A stretch of 33,989 nucleotides of DNA from Planctomycetaceae bacterium (lineage in GTDB: Bacteria > Planctomycetota > SZUA-567). A model generated the notes under the pieces. It had not been told where the DNA came from. It did no database searches and saw nothing but the letters and a program-made list of their open reading frames with translations. Positions 6,777-24,163 of the stretch are shown one piece after another (positions within the stretch are counted from its first letter, which is position 1; each line of letters opens with the position of its first letter). Location of the stretch: the NCBI GenBank assembly GCA_021201355.1, contig JAJQFC010000088.1:1-33989 (forward strand). Direction: 5' to 3'. Position numbers and translations under genes: made by a program.

Positions 6777-6815
6777 ATCGGGATACCGTGGTGAAAGGTA
6801 TCCCGATTCTTTTTT
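6777..6815 (+). terminator. Rho-independent terminator after the SDR/ABC operon
   Basis: ATCGGGATACC-(9 nt)-GGTATCCCGAT perfect 11-bp stem followed by TCTTTTTT. Confidence 0.9.
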
Positions 6816-6853
6816 CCTGTGGCGCGGTATCACCATGGCGACGGAGCAGGCTT

Positions 6854-7963
6854 TTGGCTAATTTTAAATACGTCCAACTCGCAAACCGTATCCGGGAGGA
6901 GATTTACTCCGGATTACTGGCGCCAGGAAAACGTATTCCGACGGAAGAGCAGCTGTCGGAACGGTTTGCCGTGAGCCGGAATACCGTCCGGCAGGCCTTG
7001 AAAATGCTTGAGGAGGAAGGGTATCTCGCCGGCATACAGGGAAGCGGAACCTTTGTCTCGGCCGAGTTGCCGCGGCCGCCGAGGGCGCTCGAGCCACCCG
7101 CCGAAAAACGCATCGCAGTCGTTATGAACAACTTCGGAAGTTATATCTTCCCAAGCGTCCTTATGGGTATAAGCGACCAACTCTTTGAATCCGGCTATTC
7201 GCTTGTTCTCCGCATCGCCGGAAATCATATCGCGAAAGAGGAACAAATTCTCGTCGATGTTCTTCAGTCAAAAGTGGCCGGGCTCATTATCGAACCGGCC
7301 AGGGCCGCCTGGCCCCGGGCGAATTACGACCTGTACCGGGAAATCGAACGGAACATTCCCTGCGTCCTGACCCACAGCCGGCTGCCCGGCTTCCGGTTTT
7401 CCACCGTCGGCGTCAGCGATGTCGAAGGCGTTGCCCTTCTCGTCGACCACCTGGTGGCGAACGGACACCGGAATATCGCCGCCATCTGCAAGGCGGACGA
7501 GCAAACCGGCATGAACCGCTTCGTCGGATACACCGCAGGGCTCAGGCGGAACAACCTGGTCCTCAGGGAGAAGCATATACTCTGGTACGTGGACGACGAA
7601 AATGAAACCATGTTTACGCCGCAGAATGCCCACCGCGTCTTCGCCGTCCTCGAGGGGTGTACAGCGGTTGTTTGTTTTAACGACCAACTGGTGAACCACT
7701 TCTATCCATTTTTGGAACGAAACAACGTTCGCGTCCCTGAAGACATATCTGTGGTCGGATTTGACGATTCCATCGAACGAGCCGACATTAAACCTCTCAC
7801 CACGGTGGTCCACCCGAAAGAAAAACTTGGCCGGGCCGCCGCCAGGGCGCTCCTCGATCTTATACGCGATCCCGAAGCAGACGCATCCATGCAGTTTCCG
7901 CCCGAACTTGTTTTCCGGGAAACCGTTAAGAACCTTAAACTTCCCTGTGCGGCTGAAATGTAA
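6854..7963 (+). CDS. GntR/LacI-hybrid (AraR-like) transcriptional regulator, TTG start
   Basis: Winged-helix N-terminus YVQLANRIREEIYSGLLAPGKRIPTEEQLSERFAVSRNTVRQALKMLEEEGYL plus LacI-like sensor (VGVSDVEGVALLVDHLVANGHRNIAAI). TTG at 6854 with GGAGCAGG upstream; the ORF-track start at 6788 lies inside the terminator. Confidence 0.88.
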   Translation: MANFKYVQLANRIREEIYSGLLAPGKRIPTEEQLSERFAVSRNTVRQALKMLEEEGYLAGIQGSGTFVSAELPRPPRALEPPAEKRIAVVMNNFGSYIFPSVLMGISDQLFESGYSLVLRIAGNHIAKEEQILVDVLQSKVAGLIIEPARAAWPRANYDLYREIERNIPCVLTHSRLPGFRFSTVGVSDVEGVALLVDHLVANGHRNIAAICKADEQTGMNRFVGYTAGLRRNNLVLREKHILWYVDDENETMFTPQNAHRVFAVLEGCTAVVCFNDQLVNHFYPFLERNNVRVPEDISVVGFDDSIERADIKPLTTVVHPKEKLGRAAARALLDLIRDPEADASMQFPPELVFRETVKNLKLPCAAEM

Positions 7964-15725: not shown

Positions 15726-16817
15726 TTACGACCTGAGGTTCTTGACCGTGTCCCGGAAAATAAGCTTTGGCGGGAACCGCATGGAGACGTCGGCCTCAGG
15801 GTTGGCTATGAGCGCCAGGAGCGCCTCCACCGCCTTTTTGCCGAGTATGGATTTCGGGTTTTCGATGGTGGTAAGCGGTTTCATGTCGTGCCGGTTGAAG
15901 GAATCGTCAAAGCCGGCAATGCTGATATCATCGGGAATGCGCCGGTTGTGGCGTTCGAGGAACGGATAGAGCCGGCTGACCACCTCGTCGTTGTGGCAAA
16001 ATACCGCCGTGCACCCATCCAGCGCCGAAAAGACGCGGTGGGCATTCTGGTCGGTGAACAGGCTGTCGAAGTCTTCGTCCATGAACCAGAGAACGGCGTT
16101 TTCGTCCATGGCCAGATTATTCCGGGCCAGTCCGACGCCGTAGCCCTTGAACCGTCCGGTGCCGGTCTGTTCGTCCGACTTGAAGATGCCGGCGATGCGT
16201 TTGTGGCCGTTGGCGACGAAGTGGTCGATCACCAGGGCGACGCCGTCGACATCGCTGACGCCTATTGTCGGGAATCTGAAACCGGGCAGAACGGCGTGGG
16301 TGAGAATGCAGGGCATTCTCTCTTCTATCCGCCTGTAGAGGTCCTCGTTCAGGAGGGGCCAGGCGGACCGCGTCGGTTCGATAATTAGGCCGGCGAGATT
16401 GGTCGACAGGAGTTCCGTGAGGATCTGCCGCTCTTTCGCTATCCGGTTCGAGGTAATCCGGTACACCATGGTGTATTCGTGCTCGAACAAACTTTCACTG
16501 ATTCCCATCAGCACTTCCGGATAGATATAAGCTGTGCAGCGGGGAAGGACGACGCCGATACTTTTACTGGCGGCCGGAACGGACGGGCGGGGTGCCTGAA
16601 CGGCCCGCTCCGCCACGTATGTGCCGCTGCCCTGAACCTTGACGAGAAAGCCCTCCTCGACCAAAAGGCCTATCGCCTGGCGTACGGTATTGCGGCTGAT
16701 GGAATAGCGGATGGCCAACTCTTCCTCGGCGGGGATCTGCTGTCCCGGGGCGCGGACGCCCAGTTCGATTTCGCTCTTCAGGCGGTCCGCCAGCAATGAG
16801 CATTTAAATCGAGGCAA
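15726..16817 (-). CDS. GntR/LacI-hybrid (AraR-like) transcriptional regulator, paralogous to 6854-7963, probable TTG start
   Basis: LPRFKCSLLADRLKSEIELGVRAPGQQIPAEEELAIRYSISRNTVRQAIGLLVEEGFLVKVQGSGTYVAE...; alignable by eye end to end with the 6854-7963 product. TTG at 16817-16815. Confidence 0.88.
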   Translation of the reverse strand: MPRFKCSLLADRLKSEIELGVRAPGQQIPAEEELAIRYSISRNTVRQAIGLLVEEGFLVKVQGSGTYVAERAVQAPRPSVPAASKSIGVVLPRCTAYIYPEVLMGISESLFEHEYTMVYRITSNRIAKERQILTELLSTNLAGLIIEPTRSAWPLLNEDLYRRIEERMPCILTHAVLPGFRFPTIGVSDVDGVALVIDHFVANGHKRIAGIFKSDEQTGTGRFKGYGVGLARNNLAMDENAVLWFMDEDFDSLFTDQNAHRVFSALDGCTAVFCHNDEVVSRLYPFLERHNRRIPDDISIAGFDDSFNRHDMKPLTTIENPKSILGKKAVEALLALIANPEADVSMRFPPKLIFRDTVKNLRS

Positions 16818-16865
16818 GAGATTTTCCTTGAGGTGATTTGGAACATTTCTACTTCCACTTCTATA

Positions 16866-16894
16866 AGTATATAACGTAATAATAAGGTTGTCTA
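16866..16894 (-). promoter_or_regulatory. Candidate sigma70 promoter of the second AraR-like regulator (TAGACA-17-TATACT)
   Basis: Minus-strand TAGACA, 17-nt spacer, TATACT; TTGTAC half-site further upstream (16920-16915). Confidence 0.5.
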
Positions 16895-16956
16895 GTGTGA
16901 GTATTAAAAAAATAGTACAACTTTTTCCGCGGGACTCTTTTCGCTCCCGACAGAAG

Positions 16957-16988
16957 AAAAAACCCTCCGGCCCGATGGCCGAAGGGTT
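16957..16988 (-). terminator. Rho-independent terminator after uxaA
   Basis: Minus-strand AACCCTTCGGCC-ATCG-GGCCGGAGGGTT followed by TTTT; 12-bp stem with one G-T pair. Confidence 0.85.
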
Positions 16989-17105
16989 ATTTGCAGTTTT
17001 GACTGTATTCAGGGCGAAGACGCCATGCAACAACGCGAATTACCACCACCTCTGTTTCAGCGTTCACTACTGTTCTCCGTCCTGTCCATATTTCCCATCG
17101 GCATC

Positions 17106-18595
17106 TTACAGCGTCACGCCTTCTTTGAAAATGGTGAAGTCATGGAAACTGTGCTCTTCGCTTTTGGTCTGCCGGCCGGATGTTACCGTGAGGATAAGAT
17201 CGGCGAAGCGGTCGACCATTTCGTCCATCGGCGTTCCGGAGGCTAGAGGACTGGCGTCGAAATCGATCCAGTGTTTTTACGCATTGCGAGATCGGCGTTC
17301 GACGACACCTTGACGACCGGCACCGGGCCGCCCAGCGGGTTGCCGCGGCCGGTGGAAAACAACACAAGGTGCGCGCCGGCGGCGGCCATTGCGGAGACAG
17401 ACACAATGTCGTTACCGGGGCCGGACAGGAGGGTGACGCCGCTCTTCGTCACCACACCGCCGTAAGGAAGAATGTCGACGACGGGACGGCTGCCGGCTTT
17501 TTGGGTACAGCCGATGGACTTGTCTTCCAGCGTTGTGATGCCGCCCTGCTTGTTGCCGGGACTGGGATTTTCGTAAATGGTCTGATTGTACCGGACGAAG
17601 TATTTCTTGAAGTCGTTTATCATGTCGACGCCACGGCGAAAAACATCCCCGTCCACCGCCCGGTTGAGAAGGGATCGTTCGGCGCCGAACATTTCCGGAA
17701 CCTCGGTCAGCACCACCTTGCCGCCACGATCGACCAGCCAGTCGGCGAAAGCGCCTAGAAGCGGGTTGGCGGTGACGCCGGACAAGCCGTCCGACGCGCC
17801 GCACTTCATGCCGACGCAGAGTTCCGACACCGGGACGTCCACCCGCCGGGCAGTTGCCGCACCGGCCAGGACAGCGTCAAGAAGATCCCGGCCCGCCGCC
17901 AGTTCATCGTCGACATCCTGTGCTATGAGGTAGCGGATGTTTTGGTTCCTGGCCGGGTTCGATTCCACCAGGGTCTTGAAATCGGCCATGGTGTTGTTTT
18001 CGCAGCCAAGGCCGACGTAAAGAATGCCGCCGCAATTTGGATGGATCGCCATATCGGCAAGGATGGTGCGGGTGGCTTCGTGGTCAGAGCCGAGCTGGCT
18101 GCAACCGAACGGGTGCGGAAACGCCACCACCGTCTCGACGCCCTCGGGTCGGACGGCGTTGCCGTGCGCGGCCAGCCGTTCCACCAGCCAGTTCACGCAG
18201 CCAACGGTGGGAATGACCCACACTTCGTTTCGGATACCCGCCATGCCGTTCGCTCGCTGATAGCCACGGAACGAGGGAATGGCGGCGGCCGGAACCGGCT
18301 TCGGCGGGGCCGGTTCAAAGGTGTACTTTTCCTCGCCGGAAAGGTTTGTTTTCACGTTATGAGTATGGACCCAGGATCCGGCGGGAATGGCCGCCGTCGC
18401 CTGTCCGATGGGGACGCCGTACTTCTGGACCAGCCCGCCGGCGGGGATGTCCCGTACGGAAAATTTGTGTCCGGCCGGCACGTCTTCCCGGAGCGGCCCG
18501 CCGGCGGCGGCGACATCGACAGATTCGCCTTTTTTCAGAGCCTCCAGAGCGACCGCGACGTTATCGTCCGCTGAAAGCATGATGTATTTCTTCAT
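17106..18595 (-). pseudogene. uxaA: Altronate dehydratase (UxaA-like), frameshifted near the 3' end
   Basis: MKKYIMLSADDNVAVALEALKKGE... ; in-frame ORF ends 'SSNADLAMRKNTGSISTPVL*', but the adjacent frame continues HWIDFDASPLASGTPMDEMVDRFADLILTVTSGRQTKSEEHSFHDFTIFKEGVTL*, the expected UxaA C-terminus. A-run at 17274-17278 is one base short. Confidence 0.88.
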
Positions 18596-18674: not shown

Positions 18675-20159
18675 TCAAACAGACCGCAATGCCGCCCTGA
18701 CCCCTTTCCCGGCAATGCCTTCCAGACCGGCCGCGACCTTTTCGGCCAGACCCGGAATAGCGGTCAAATCTTCATCCCAGAGCGTCGCGTCGGCGAGGAT
18801 GGTTCTGGTCAGTCCGGAAAAATCGGCGACATGGCTGTTCCACGCCCTGGCGAAGGCGTCGAGGACCGGCTTGTCATCACGAATCGGGTATGTGCCCCGC
18901 TCTCGTGTCCCGACAAATTGGCCGTCCGCCCATGCACCCCGGTAAAAGGCGATAAGGCACGACAGTGAAAAAGCCAGCCGCGCCGGGACGGTTCCCGTTT
19001 CCGCGTAATAGTCCTTGAGGGACGGCAGCACCCGCACCTTCCATTTTGAGACCGAATTTAGGGAAATCGACAGGAGTTCGTGGCGGACGAACGGGTTTCG
19101 AAAGCGTTCGAACACCGCCCGGGCATATTCCTTTTTCTCGTCGTCCGGGAGTTTGACGCCGGGAAGTATTTCTTCTTCGACCATGGCCCGAAGGTTGCCG
19201 CCCAGGTCCGCGTCGTCCATCATCTCGCCGACCGTGTCGACGCCGGACAGGTAGGCGCCAAGGACGTTCCCGGTATGGGCTCCGTTCAAAACCCGGACCT
19301 TCCGGTCGCGGTACGGCGTCAGGTTGTCTGTGACGACAACGTTCAGGCCGGCGTCGGCGAATCGGAGCTCGTCCTTCAGGCTCGGCTCGCCCTCTATGAC
19401 CCAGAGGTGAAAGTATTCCCCGACGTCCAGGAGTTCGTCCCGGCAATCGTTCGCGGCCCATAGCACCTCTGCTTCATCCCGGGGATAGCCGGTGACGATA
19501 CGGTCGACCAGGGTGTTGTAGAATAGGCAGCAGTCCGCCACCCAAACGCCGGCCGAGTCAGCGAGTCCCCAGTCGGCCAAGTGACGGAGGACCGCTTCCT
19601 TCAACCGTTCGCCGTTCTTTTCGATAAGTTCGCACGGCAGGAACACGAGGCCCTTGTCAGGAGCGCCGCGCCATTTTTCGTACCGCGCCGCCAGCATGGC
19701 GGCCGCCTTGGCCGGGAATGTCTCCGGGCAGCCGTCCGGCCGGGCCGTTGCAACATAGACAATGCCCGCCTCCGTAGTGTTGGAGACGACGTACCGCAGA
19801 TCCCCGTCCCCGGCGGCGGCGAGGAAGCGGTCCCATTCCGTGTAGGGATTGAGGCCGTCCCGGATGACATCGATGTACGACGGCACGTCCATCACCTCGC
19901 CGTTGTCCCGACCCCGCAGCAGCAGGCTGTAGACGTAATCCTGTTCCTTCAGCCGTTCGACCATGCCTTCCGGAATCGGCTGGACAAGGCGGACCGTTCC
20001 CCGGAACAACCCGCTGTCGTTCAGCCGCTTGAACATCCAGTCGACAAAGGCGCGGAGAAAATTCCCTTCGCCGAACTGCATAATGCGGACGGGGGTGTCG
20101 CCCGGAATGATCGGGCAATCGTGGTCGACAAGCCATTGGCGGGAAATCGGGGCTGGCAT
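18675..20159 (-). CDS. uxaB: Tagaturonate reductase (mannitol dehydrogenase family)
   Basis: RIMQFGEGNFLRAFVDWMF, VSNTTEAGIVY, LVDRIVTGYPRDEAE, RKVRVLNGAHTGN, LPARLAFSLSCLIAFYRG: UxaB-type motifs. Confidence 0.88.
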   Translation of the reverse strand: MPAPISRQWLVDHDCPIIPGDTPVRIMQFGEGNFLRAFVDWMFKRLNDSGLFRGTVRLVQPIPEGMVERLKEQDYVYSLLLRGRDNGEVMDVPSYIDVIRDGLNPYTEWDRFLAAAGDGDLRYVVSNTTEAGIVYVATARPDGCPETFPAKAAAMLAARYEKWRGAPDKGLVFLPCELIEKNGERLKEAVLRHLADWGLADSAGVWVADCCLFYNTLVDRIVTGYPRDEAEVLWAANDCRDELLDVGEYFHLWVIEGEPSLKDELRFADAGLNVVVTDNLTPYRDRKVRVLNGAHTGNVLGAYLSGVDTVGEMMDDADLGGNLRAMVEEEILPGVKLPDDEKKEYARAVFERFRNPFVRHELLSISLNSVSKWKVRVLPSLKDYYAETGTVPARLAFSLSCLIAFYRGAWADGQFVGTRERGTYPIRDDKPVLDAFARAWNSHVADFSGLTRTILADATLWDEDLTAIPGLAEKVAAGLEGIAGKGVRAALRSV

Positions 20160-20212: not shown

Positions 20213-21241
20213 CTATTCAGGGAATTTCACGAGAACCTTGAGCATGTCGTCGCCGTGGGCGGAAAAATCGGCAAACGCCGCCGCGACATCGGCGAAATCA
20301 TAGGTGTTCGTGACGATGGCGTCGGCTCCGATACCGGTTTTCTTCATCATGTCGATGACTTCGAGAAAATCCTGTTTGACCGCGTTCCGGGAACCGAAGA
20401 CGGCGATTTCCTTTTTCTGGATGACATTGAAATTGAAATCGGGCAGGGTCGTTTTCGAAATACCGATGACCGCCACCCGGCCGGACGAGGCGACGGCGTC
20501 GACGGCGTTCTGGAAGGTGGACGGCAGGCCAACCGCCTCCACGGTCACGGCGAAACCGTCGCCTCCGGTGGTGGCGGCAACCCATTCGGCGAAATCATCG
20601 GGCGAGGAGTTGACGAATGTTCCGCTGGCTCCGAGATTCTTCGCCCGCTCCAGCTTGCCCGGCGCCACGTCGCAGACGTAGACGTCCGCGCCGAAATGGC
20701 GGGCCGAAAGCATGGCGAGCATGCCTATCGTCCCGGCGCCGATGACCAGAACCTTTTCACCCGGCCGCACCCCGGCGCGCTTGACGCCGTGGTAACTGAT
20801 GCAGAACGGTTCTATGAGAGCCGTCTCCCTTGGGGCCAGGCCCTGTGAATCATAGAGGCGTTCGACCGGCACGGCCAGGTAACGGGAAAAGCCGCCGTCC
20901 CGCTGCGCGCCCATCGTTTCGTTATTGACGCAACAATTCTGCTTGCCGTGGCGGCAGGGATAACAATTCCCGCAGTTGAAGTAAGGGTTGACGGTGGCCA
21001 GCATCCCTTTCCCGACGCCAAGGGAATTTTCCGGAGCGGAAATCACTTCCACGGCCAATTCGTGGCCGGGTACGCGCGGGTAGGAGGCGTAGGCAAAGGT
21101 TCCCCGGAAGGTGCCGAGGTCGGAACCGCAAATGCCGCCGTACAGCACCTTGACGAGGGCTTCGCCGTCTTTGGGTTCCACCATGGGCGCGTCCTCGACG
21201 AGGACCAGGCCCGGTTCCGGGATAAGCACGTGCTTGTTCAC
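20213..21241 (-). CDS. Zinc-dependent medium-chain alcohol dehydrogenase, L-galactonate-5-dehydrogenase (LgoD)-like
   Basis: GICGSDLGTFRG, GHE, NCGNCYPCRHGKQNCC structural-zinc cysteines, VIGAGTIGMLAM; placed next to uxaB/uxaA. Confidence 0.8.
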   Translation of the reverse strand: MNKHVLIPEPGLVLVEDAPMVEPKDGEALVKVLYGGICGSDLGTFRGTFAYASYPRVPGHELAVEVISAPENSLGVGKGMLATVNPYFNCGNCYPCRHGKQNCCVNNETMGAQRDGGFSRYLAVPVERLYDSQGLAPRETALIEPFCISYHGVKRAGVRPGEKVLVIGAGTIGMLAMLSARHFGADVYVCDVAPGKLERAKNLGASGTFVNSSPDDFAEWVAATTGGDGFAVTVEAVGLPSTFQNAVDAVASSGRVAVIGISKTTLPDFNFNVIQKKEIAVFGSRNAVKQDFLEVIDMMKKTGIGADAIVTNTYDFADVAAAFADFSAHGDDMLKVLVKFPE

Positions 21242-21290: not shown

Positions 21291-22580
21291 TCAATAAAAG
21301 AGCTTCAGGATCCCGGTAGTGACGCCGGGAACAAAGGTGATGAGCAAAAGGCAGAATAGCATGAGGCAGAAGTAGGGAACGGCGCTGACGAGGAAATCCC
21401 TAATCTTGCACTTCGTAATGCTGCAGGTGACGAACATCAGCGTTCCCATGGGCGGTGTGATGGCGCCTATGGCCATGTTGAAGATGAACACGAAGGCGAA
21501 CTGGATGTCGTCGATGCCGTAGGCCCGGGCAATAGGGGCGAGAAGCGGAACCAGGATGACGGTGGCGGCGTTTCCTTCGATGAACATGCCGACGATGAGG
21601 AGAAACAGGTTGACGAGAATAAGGAAGAGGTACTTGTTGTCGATAGTGTTCACCATCCAGAGCGTCAGGTTCTGGGGGATTTGTTCGCGGGTAAGAACCC
21701 ACGCCAAGGCCGACGCCCCGCCGACGATAAGCATGATGGTGGAGGTGATGGTCACCGTTTCCTTGACGCTGGTGATAATTTTGGACAGGGAAAGTTCCCG
21801 GTAGAGAAGGCCAAGGAAGCCGGCGTAAAGGACGGCCACCGCTCCGGCCTCGGTCGGCGTGAAAACGCCGATTCTGATGCCGCCGATAATGATGACGGGA
21901 AGGCAGAACGGAAGAAACGCCGGCCTAAATGCGGTGAATAGCTCGCTCAACCCGGGCATGGCGGCGCGGGACGGGCCGTACCCAAAGCGGCGGGATAGGA
22001 TCGAGGTGAGAATCATCATCGACAGACAGAGAACGGCGCCGACGGAGATGCCGGCGATAAAGAGTTTGCCGATGGAGACGTTGGCGATGGAGCCGTAAAG
22101 AATCATGCCGATACCCGGCGGAATGAGCGGCGTGATGGTCGAGGAAAACGCCGTGACGACGGTGGAAAACGGTTTCGACATGCCCTGCTTTTCCATCTCC
22201 GGCACAACCATCTTCGATTGCATAGCGGCATCGGCGAGGTTTGATCCGGAAAGACCGCCCATGAGGGTGGAAAGAAGGATATTGACCTGGGCCAGCCCGC
22301 CCCACATCCTGGCCGTCACCACGTTGCAGAATCCCATAATGCGGGCAGTCACGCCGGAGGAGTTCATGAAGATCCCGGCGCAGACGAAGAAGGGGATGGC
22401 GAGAAGCGGTACGCTCTCGAGACCGGCGGCGAAGCGTTGCACCATGACCATCTGGTTGGCGTTCGGGCTCAACATGAAATAGGTGATGGAACCGGCCAGG
22501 AGAGATATGAATACCGGCACTTTGAGAAACAGGGACACCAGGAGGACGGCTATGGCCAGACCAACCAACGAAATACTCAT
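21291..22580 (-). CDS. dctM: TRAP transporter large permease (DctM)
   Basis: MSISLVGLAIAVLLVSLFLKVPVFISLLAGS... ; ATG at 22580 overlaps the dctQ stop in an ATGA junction. Confidence 0.92.
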   Translation of the reverse strand: MSISLVGLAIAVLLVSLFLKVPVFISLLAGSITYFMLSPNANQMVMVQRFAAGLESVPLLAIPFFVCAGIFMNSSGVTARIMGFCNVVTARMWGGLAQVNILLSTLMGGLSGSNLADAAMQSKMVVPEMEKQGMSKPFSTVVTAFSSTITPLIPPGIGMILYGSIANVSIGKLFIAGISVGAVLCLSMMILTSILSRRFGYGPSRAAMPGLSELFTAFRPAFLPFCLPVIIIGGIRIGVFTPTEAGAVAVLYAGFLGLLYRELSLSKIITSVKETVTITSTIMLIVGGASALAWVLTREQIPQNLTLWMVNTIDNKYLFLILVNLFLLIVGMFIEGNAATVILVPLLAPIARAYGIDDIQFAFVFIFNMAIGAITPPMGTLMFVTCSITKCKIRDFLVSAVPYFCLMLFCLLLITFVPGVTTGILKLFY

Positions 22581-23083
22581 TCCGCATCCTCCTTGTTTTC
22601 CCTGGCTATCCGCCGCTTGCCGACAGCGCGCCCGATTTCCGCAATCCAGAAGTTCACCAGCATGCACGCCGCGCCAACCGGGACGGCGGCGTAGGTCAAG
22701 GCGTAGGGAATTCGGAGGACATTACTGACCCTCCTTCCGGACGCCAACCGCGCGACATATTCGTATCCCCGACAGGCGATGAAAATGAGGACGGCGGTGA
22801 CGACGAGGAATACAAGCACTTCCACCGCCTTCCTGGCCCAAGCCGGCATGATGTCCACGAGAATTTCAATAGAGACGTGGGCGTGAAGCCGGAAAGCGGC
22901 GCTACCGCCGAAGAATACCAGCCAGACGATGAAGAGCATCTGCGCCTCTTCCAGCCAGGTGAGCGGGCTGTTCGCGAAGTAGCGCATCACGACGCCGAAT
23001 GCCGTTGCCCCGAGAAGAAGCACCATGCATACGCCCGCCACTATCAGGTCGAGGTTTTTCAATTGTCGGACAAATGAGTTCAC
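22577..23083 (-). CDS. dctQ: TRAP transporter small permease (DctQ)
   Basis: VVMRYFANSPLTWLEEAQMLFIVWLVFFGGSAAFRLHAHVSIEIL: DctQ hallmark. Confidence 0.92.
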   Translation of the reverse strand: MNSFVRQLKNLDLIVAGVCMVLLLGATAFGVVMRYFANSPLTWLEEAQMLFIVWLVFFGGSAAFRLHAHVSIEILVDIMPAWARKAVEVLVFLVVTAVLIFIACRGYEYVARLASGRRVSNVLRIPYALTYAAVPVGAACMLVNFWIAEIGRAVGKRRIARENKEDAE

Positions 23084-23173: not shown

Positions 23174-24163
23174 CTATTCGGCAATGATTTTCTTGATGGT
23201 TTCATACAGGCCCGGGGTCCAGTAGGAAAATTCGGGATAACTGTAGAAAGCTTCAACGGCAGCCTTGTAGTCTTCGTAGTTGATGGGAGTGACGGTGACG
23301 CCATCCGCTTTCATTTTTTCCAGAATTTCCTCTTCGAACTCGACCAGAATCCTGTTCTGGTATTCCCCGGCCTCCCTGGCGGTCCTGACGAGAATGTCCT
23401 GCTGTTCGGCGGTCAGCGTATCCCAGAAGGCGGTGCCGCAGACGAAAATATTGATGGTCTTCATGTGGGCGTCTAAAAGGAGGTTTTTCGCGACTTCGTG
23501 GTACTTGCCGCCCCAGATGGTTCCAAGAGGATTTTCAAGGCCGTCGATAACGCCCTGTTAGAGGGATGTATAAACTTCGCCCAGGGCGAGAGGCGTGGCC
23601 GAAGCCCCGATGGCCTCGAAAGCCTTGACGAAAATCATGCTTTGGGGAACGCGAATCTTTAGACCGGCCATGTCCTTCGGCGACATCACCGGCTTGACGG
23701 TCAGAGTGTGGCGGTCGCCGTAGCGCCAGTTGGAAGCGATGACCTTGAAGCCTTTTTCTTCAAGGAGTTTTTCCTGCCCTTTCCACCAGTCGCTGGCGAA
23801 CAACTTTTCCATCTGCTCCCAGGTCTCGCAGAGGTACGGCGCCTGCAGGATGCCGATATCCGGGACGCCCAAGTCGGCGAACATGGCGGTGTCGGTGGAG
23901 TGGACGACCGGATCGCCCATCCATGCCTGCTCAATCTGGTCTTTGCCGGATCCAAGCTGGTCGTTCGGGAACAGGTTCAGCCTGATGGTGCCGTTACTTT
24001 GTTCCTCGACGAGCTTGGCCCAGTAGACATGGCCCCGACCGTACGGCACATCGATGGTCGGTCCGAACCCGACGTTGACCTCCACGACCGGTTGGCCGGC
24101 GCGGGCCGGGACATTCAGCGCGCATAGCGCCAGGAGAGCGCACACCGCAAACATCTTCTTCAT
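23174..24163 (-). pseudogene. dctP: TRAP transporter substrate-binding protein (DctP), interrupted by a single in-frame TAA
   Basis: ORFs 24163-23558 and 23464-23174 are in the same frame; reading through gives ...ATPLALGEVYTSL*QGVIDGLENPLGTIWGGKYHEVAKNLLLDAHMKTINIFVCG...; stop at 23560-23558. Confidence 0.88.

Follow-up and report, generated by a model that had tools for sequence, protein, structure and literature searches.

The window analysed here, a stretch of 33,989 nucleotides, carries a uxaA-like dehydratase gene whose reading frame breaks at a short run of A residues. We suggest that a one-base deletion beside this run would have disrupted the gene. We regard the break as an ordinary frameshift and put the probability that it is an unprogrammed one-base indel at roughly 0.93, taking a real mutation and a consensus error together. 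Translation past the break would add 10 wrong residues and then meet a stop, with about 55 conserved residues of the GD_AH C-terminus lost. Thus, the truncated product is probably inactive. As to the source of the indel, we slightly favor a mutation that recently inactivated the gene, within a uronate-catabolism operon in decay, over an error in the consensus.

The gene is of the altronate/galactarate-dehydratase type, in the UxaA/GarD superfamily. The features at its 3' end and just downstream are as follows.

17243 to 18595, minus strand: uxaA/garD-type dehydratase gene in frame 0, which covers the SAF-type N-terminus and the greater part of the GD_AH domain and is cut off by a premature TAG
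17274 to 17278, minus strand: A5 run, the site of the frame break (T AAA AAC ACT), with CGT at 17281-17279 before it and CACTGG from 17273 after it
17106 to 17273, minus strand: conserved C-terminal 55 codons (HWIDFDAS...IFKEGVTL) and a stop, in the shifted frame
16961 to 16988, minus strand: terminator-like hairpin with a T tail, downstream of the uxaA-like gene

From its ATG at 18595 the frame stays open to the TAG at 17245-17243, but its end, which reads ...AMRKNTGSISTPVL before the stop, departs from the family consensus at CGT AAA AAC ACT (17281-17270). The frame one base off reads HWIDFDASPLASGTPMDEM...IFKEGVTL, with a stop ending at 17106. The minus-strand letters and both translations thus confirm the preliminary description, which had reported a uxaA frameshift at the A-run with the conserved C-terminus continuing in the other frame. 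Its placing of the tail end at 17106 is also correct, but the terminator that it put immediately after is the hairpin at 16988-16961, about 120 bases past the stop.

The Pfam profile PF20629 (GD_AH_C) matches the first frame over profile positions 1-187 (E 2.3e-77) and the second over 184-242 (E 1.4e-9), and the two matches abut at the A-run. Because the domain is divided in this way between two abutting frames, the shifted-frame tail is not a chance match. Taken by itself, the tail matches positions 188-242 (E 3.5e-10). By sequence, the N-terminal SAF-type domain and the complete GD_AH domain are all present, divided between the two frames. Against the galactarate dehydratase equivalog TIGR03248, the truncated protein scored 239.8 bits, far under the cut-off of 730.85, so we infer altronate dehydratase identity from the uxaB context. 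The source genome has one uxaA-type gene and one uxaB gene above the respective cut-offs.

The intact form of the site can be read from relatives. Four congeneric orthologues (63-67% identical) have a single open frame through the site and no A6 run. Those from two genomes of the same family (about 48-58% identical) are also open through it, with no six A's. At the site, the orthologues read R-K-x-H-W-I-D-[FY]-[DN]-A or near. With one domain across two frames here and single-frame orthologues elsewhere, the ordinary indel, real or a consensus error, is supported among the options first listed for the break. In one of the family-level relatives (G013), the sequence is CGTAAAAAGCACTGG where the window has CGTAAAAACACTGG, and it is one base longer at exactly the break point. 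Therefore, the base missing from the window need not be A, and judged from this alignment, loss of a non-A base beside the A5 run would fit equally well as loss of an A. The original proposal to restore the frame by inserting one A thus holds for the single missing base, and A as its identity is not required. Other copies of the site were absent from the GTDB species genomes in a pattern scan with a variable gap, and no second assembly of the same species was found. A protein search of genome contigs returned a single distant relative, from Clostridium sp.

We also compared the tail with the body of the gene. The ratio of tail to body identity is 0.79-1.02 for the window gene and 0.77-1.25 for ortholog-ortholog pairs, and by this measure there is no relaxed constraint in the uxaA tail. 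Since the tail is relatively no more diverged than it is between intact orthologues, the break is either recent or not real. This absence of decay in the tail is a point against real decay. The normally conserved tail is also what would be seen if the organism's gene were intact and one base had been dropped in the draft, through a consensus or assembly error. We regard such an error as a serious candidate, at somewhat under even odds.

The quality of the assembly bears on this question. The source genome is a draft in 372 contigs, 83% complete. For an estimate of lesion density, a self-trained frame model was run over the window and 20 other contigs totalling 183 kb. In simulation it picked up 50 of 61 one-base deletions. 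The uxaA break, whose tail is short, escaped it. About four other credible frame breaks were found in the 183 kb sampled, two of them fairly clear (L042, L047) and two likely (L033, L044).

L047, about 6697, minus strand: EamA-type permease gene, frame break beside a C7 run (frame model; Pfam on the upstream half)
L042, about 13673, minus strand: Radical SAM gene, frame break in a short, homopolymer-rich stretch of G, A and C runs (GACGGGAAACCCCC) (frame model; Pfam on the upstream half)
L033, about 1308, and L044, about 13572, minus strand: long, repetitive reading frames resembling surface proteins, each with a likely frame break (frame model)

In Pfam, the upstream halves match Radical_SAM, cut short, in L042 and EamA in L047; the downstream halves gave only a weak match in L042 and none in L047. 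In-frame stops at L046:1440, L047:6108 and L052:4201 were rejected as lesions, being normal gene junctions. One frame change in L041 sits at a run of 10 N. Most of the other frame breaks lie at or beside short homopolymers. This recurrence of one-base breaks, together with the fragmentation of the draft, is a point for a consensus error, and given such comparable breaks the uxaA break is not exceptional in this draft. However, A5 is short for consensus errors on most platforms.

A recent inactivating mutation draws its support from the operon, in which a second lesion was found.

18675 to 20159, minus strand: intact uxaB (tagaturonate reductase), which lies upstream of the uxaA-like gene in its operon
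20213 to 21241, minus strand: Zn-dependent alcohol-dehydrogenase-family gene, intact
21291 to 23083, minus strand: TRAP transporter large and small permease genes
23177 to 24163, minus strand: TRAP substrate-binding protein gene dctP with an in-frame TAA (23558-23560), the second operon lesion

At the dctP TAA, both congeners compared have CAG, for a conserved Gln, and the frame and DctP domain of the window gene run on past the TAA to 23177. This lesion was not part of the earlier finding. It is a substitution-type nonsense codon, which is less common as a consensus error. With two lesions in one operon, real decay is somewhat favored. The remaining window genes have no clear lesion, and homologues of these operon genes lie on one contig in two congeners. 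A uxaC gene was not detected in the source genome, while seven of eight relatives carry one; this absence is weak evidence because the genome is only 83% complete. Elsewhere in the window are two regulators with LacI-type sensor domains, at 6788-7963 (plus strand) and 15726-17033 (minus strand). The latter has a GntR-type DNA-binding domain, and the former matches LacI-family models only from about position 56. For annotation, neither a working UxaA nor this TRAP importer should be credited to the genome without a read check, and similar care is due with the comparable breaks in other parts of the draft.

The preliminary description had also offered slippage and a phase-variable tract as options. 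A full-length product would need a -1 shift, or an RNA longer by one base. The required shift does fall at the A-run, and the tail remains conserved, as would be expected if full-length enzyme were made by transcriptional slippage or ribosomal -1 frameshifting there. However, a programmed -1 ribosomal frameshift was rejected, because the site has no proper heptamer (T_AAA_AAC where X_XXY_YYZ is needed in frame) and no stimulatory structure. By the established rule, T_AAA_AAC would put the P-site Lys tRNA on UAA, with no proper re-pairing. Downstream of the A5 run, folding was no better than that of shuffled sequences (z 0.24). The site is not conserved in the orthologues, which are in frame without it. 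Selection against slippage-prone A/T runs is evident from nine nucleotides in many bacterial genomes (PMC1088944), and in E. coli, insertions through slippage become exponentially more frequent as runs lengthen (PMC5574713); A5 is therefore short for transcriptional slippage. We thus consider production of the full-length enzyme by either route very unlikely. It is just as improbable that A5 acts as an efficient frameshift or slippage site specific to this species, by which UxaA would be rescued or regulated.

A phase-variable A-tract that turns uxaA on and off would account for a homopolymer at the break. Yet an A5 run is ordinary here, since the 217 kb sampled hold 413 A/T runs of length 5 and 157 longer ones, and the tract is not retained in congeners, whose genes are in frame without it. 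A catabolic enzyme is also an unusual target of phase variation. We give this option hardly any weight. The short A5, the unconserved site, the lack of a proper heptamer and the unremarkable fold together make recoding or phase variation unlikely.

The gene and its break can be placed among known systems. Like the UxaA/GarD superfamily of altronate and galactarate dehydratases (PF20629, structure 6U7L), the window gene has the same domain order and, with both frames counted, the full conserved C-terminus, and it adjoins uxaB. It differs in that its frame is broken at codon 441. With genes that use transcriptional slippage, such as Thermus dnaX and IS elements (PMC1088944), it shares a frame change at an A-run, but the run is A5 and not about A9, it is not conserved, and there is no functional sign. 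From ordinary frameshifted pseudogenes and homopolymer indels in drafts we saw no difference: the window gene, like them, has a single-base break, intact orthologues and similar breaks elsewhere in its genome.
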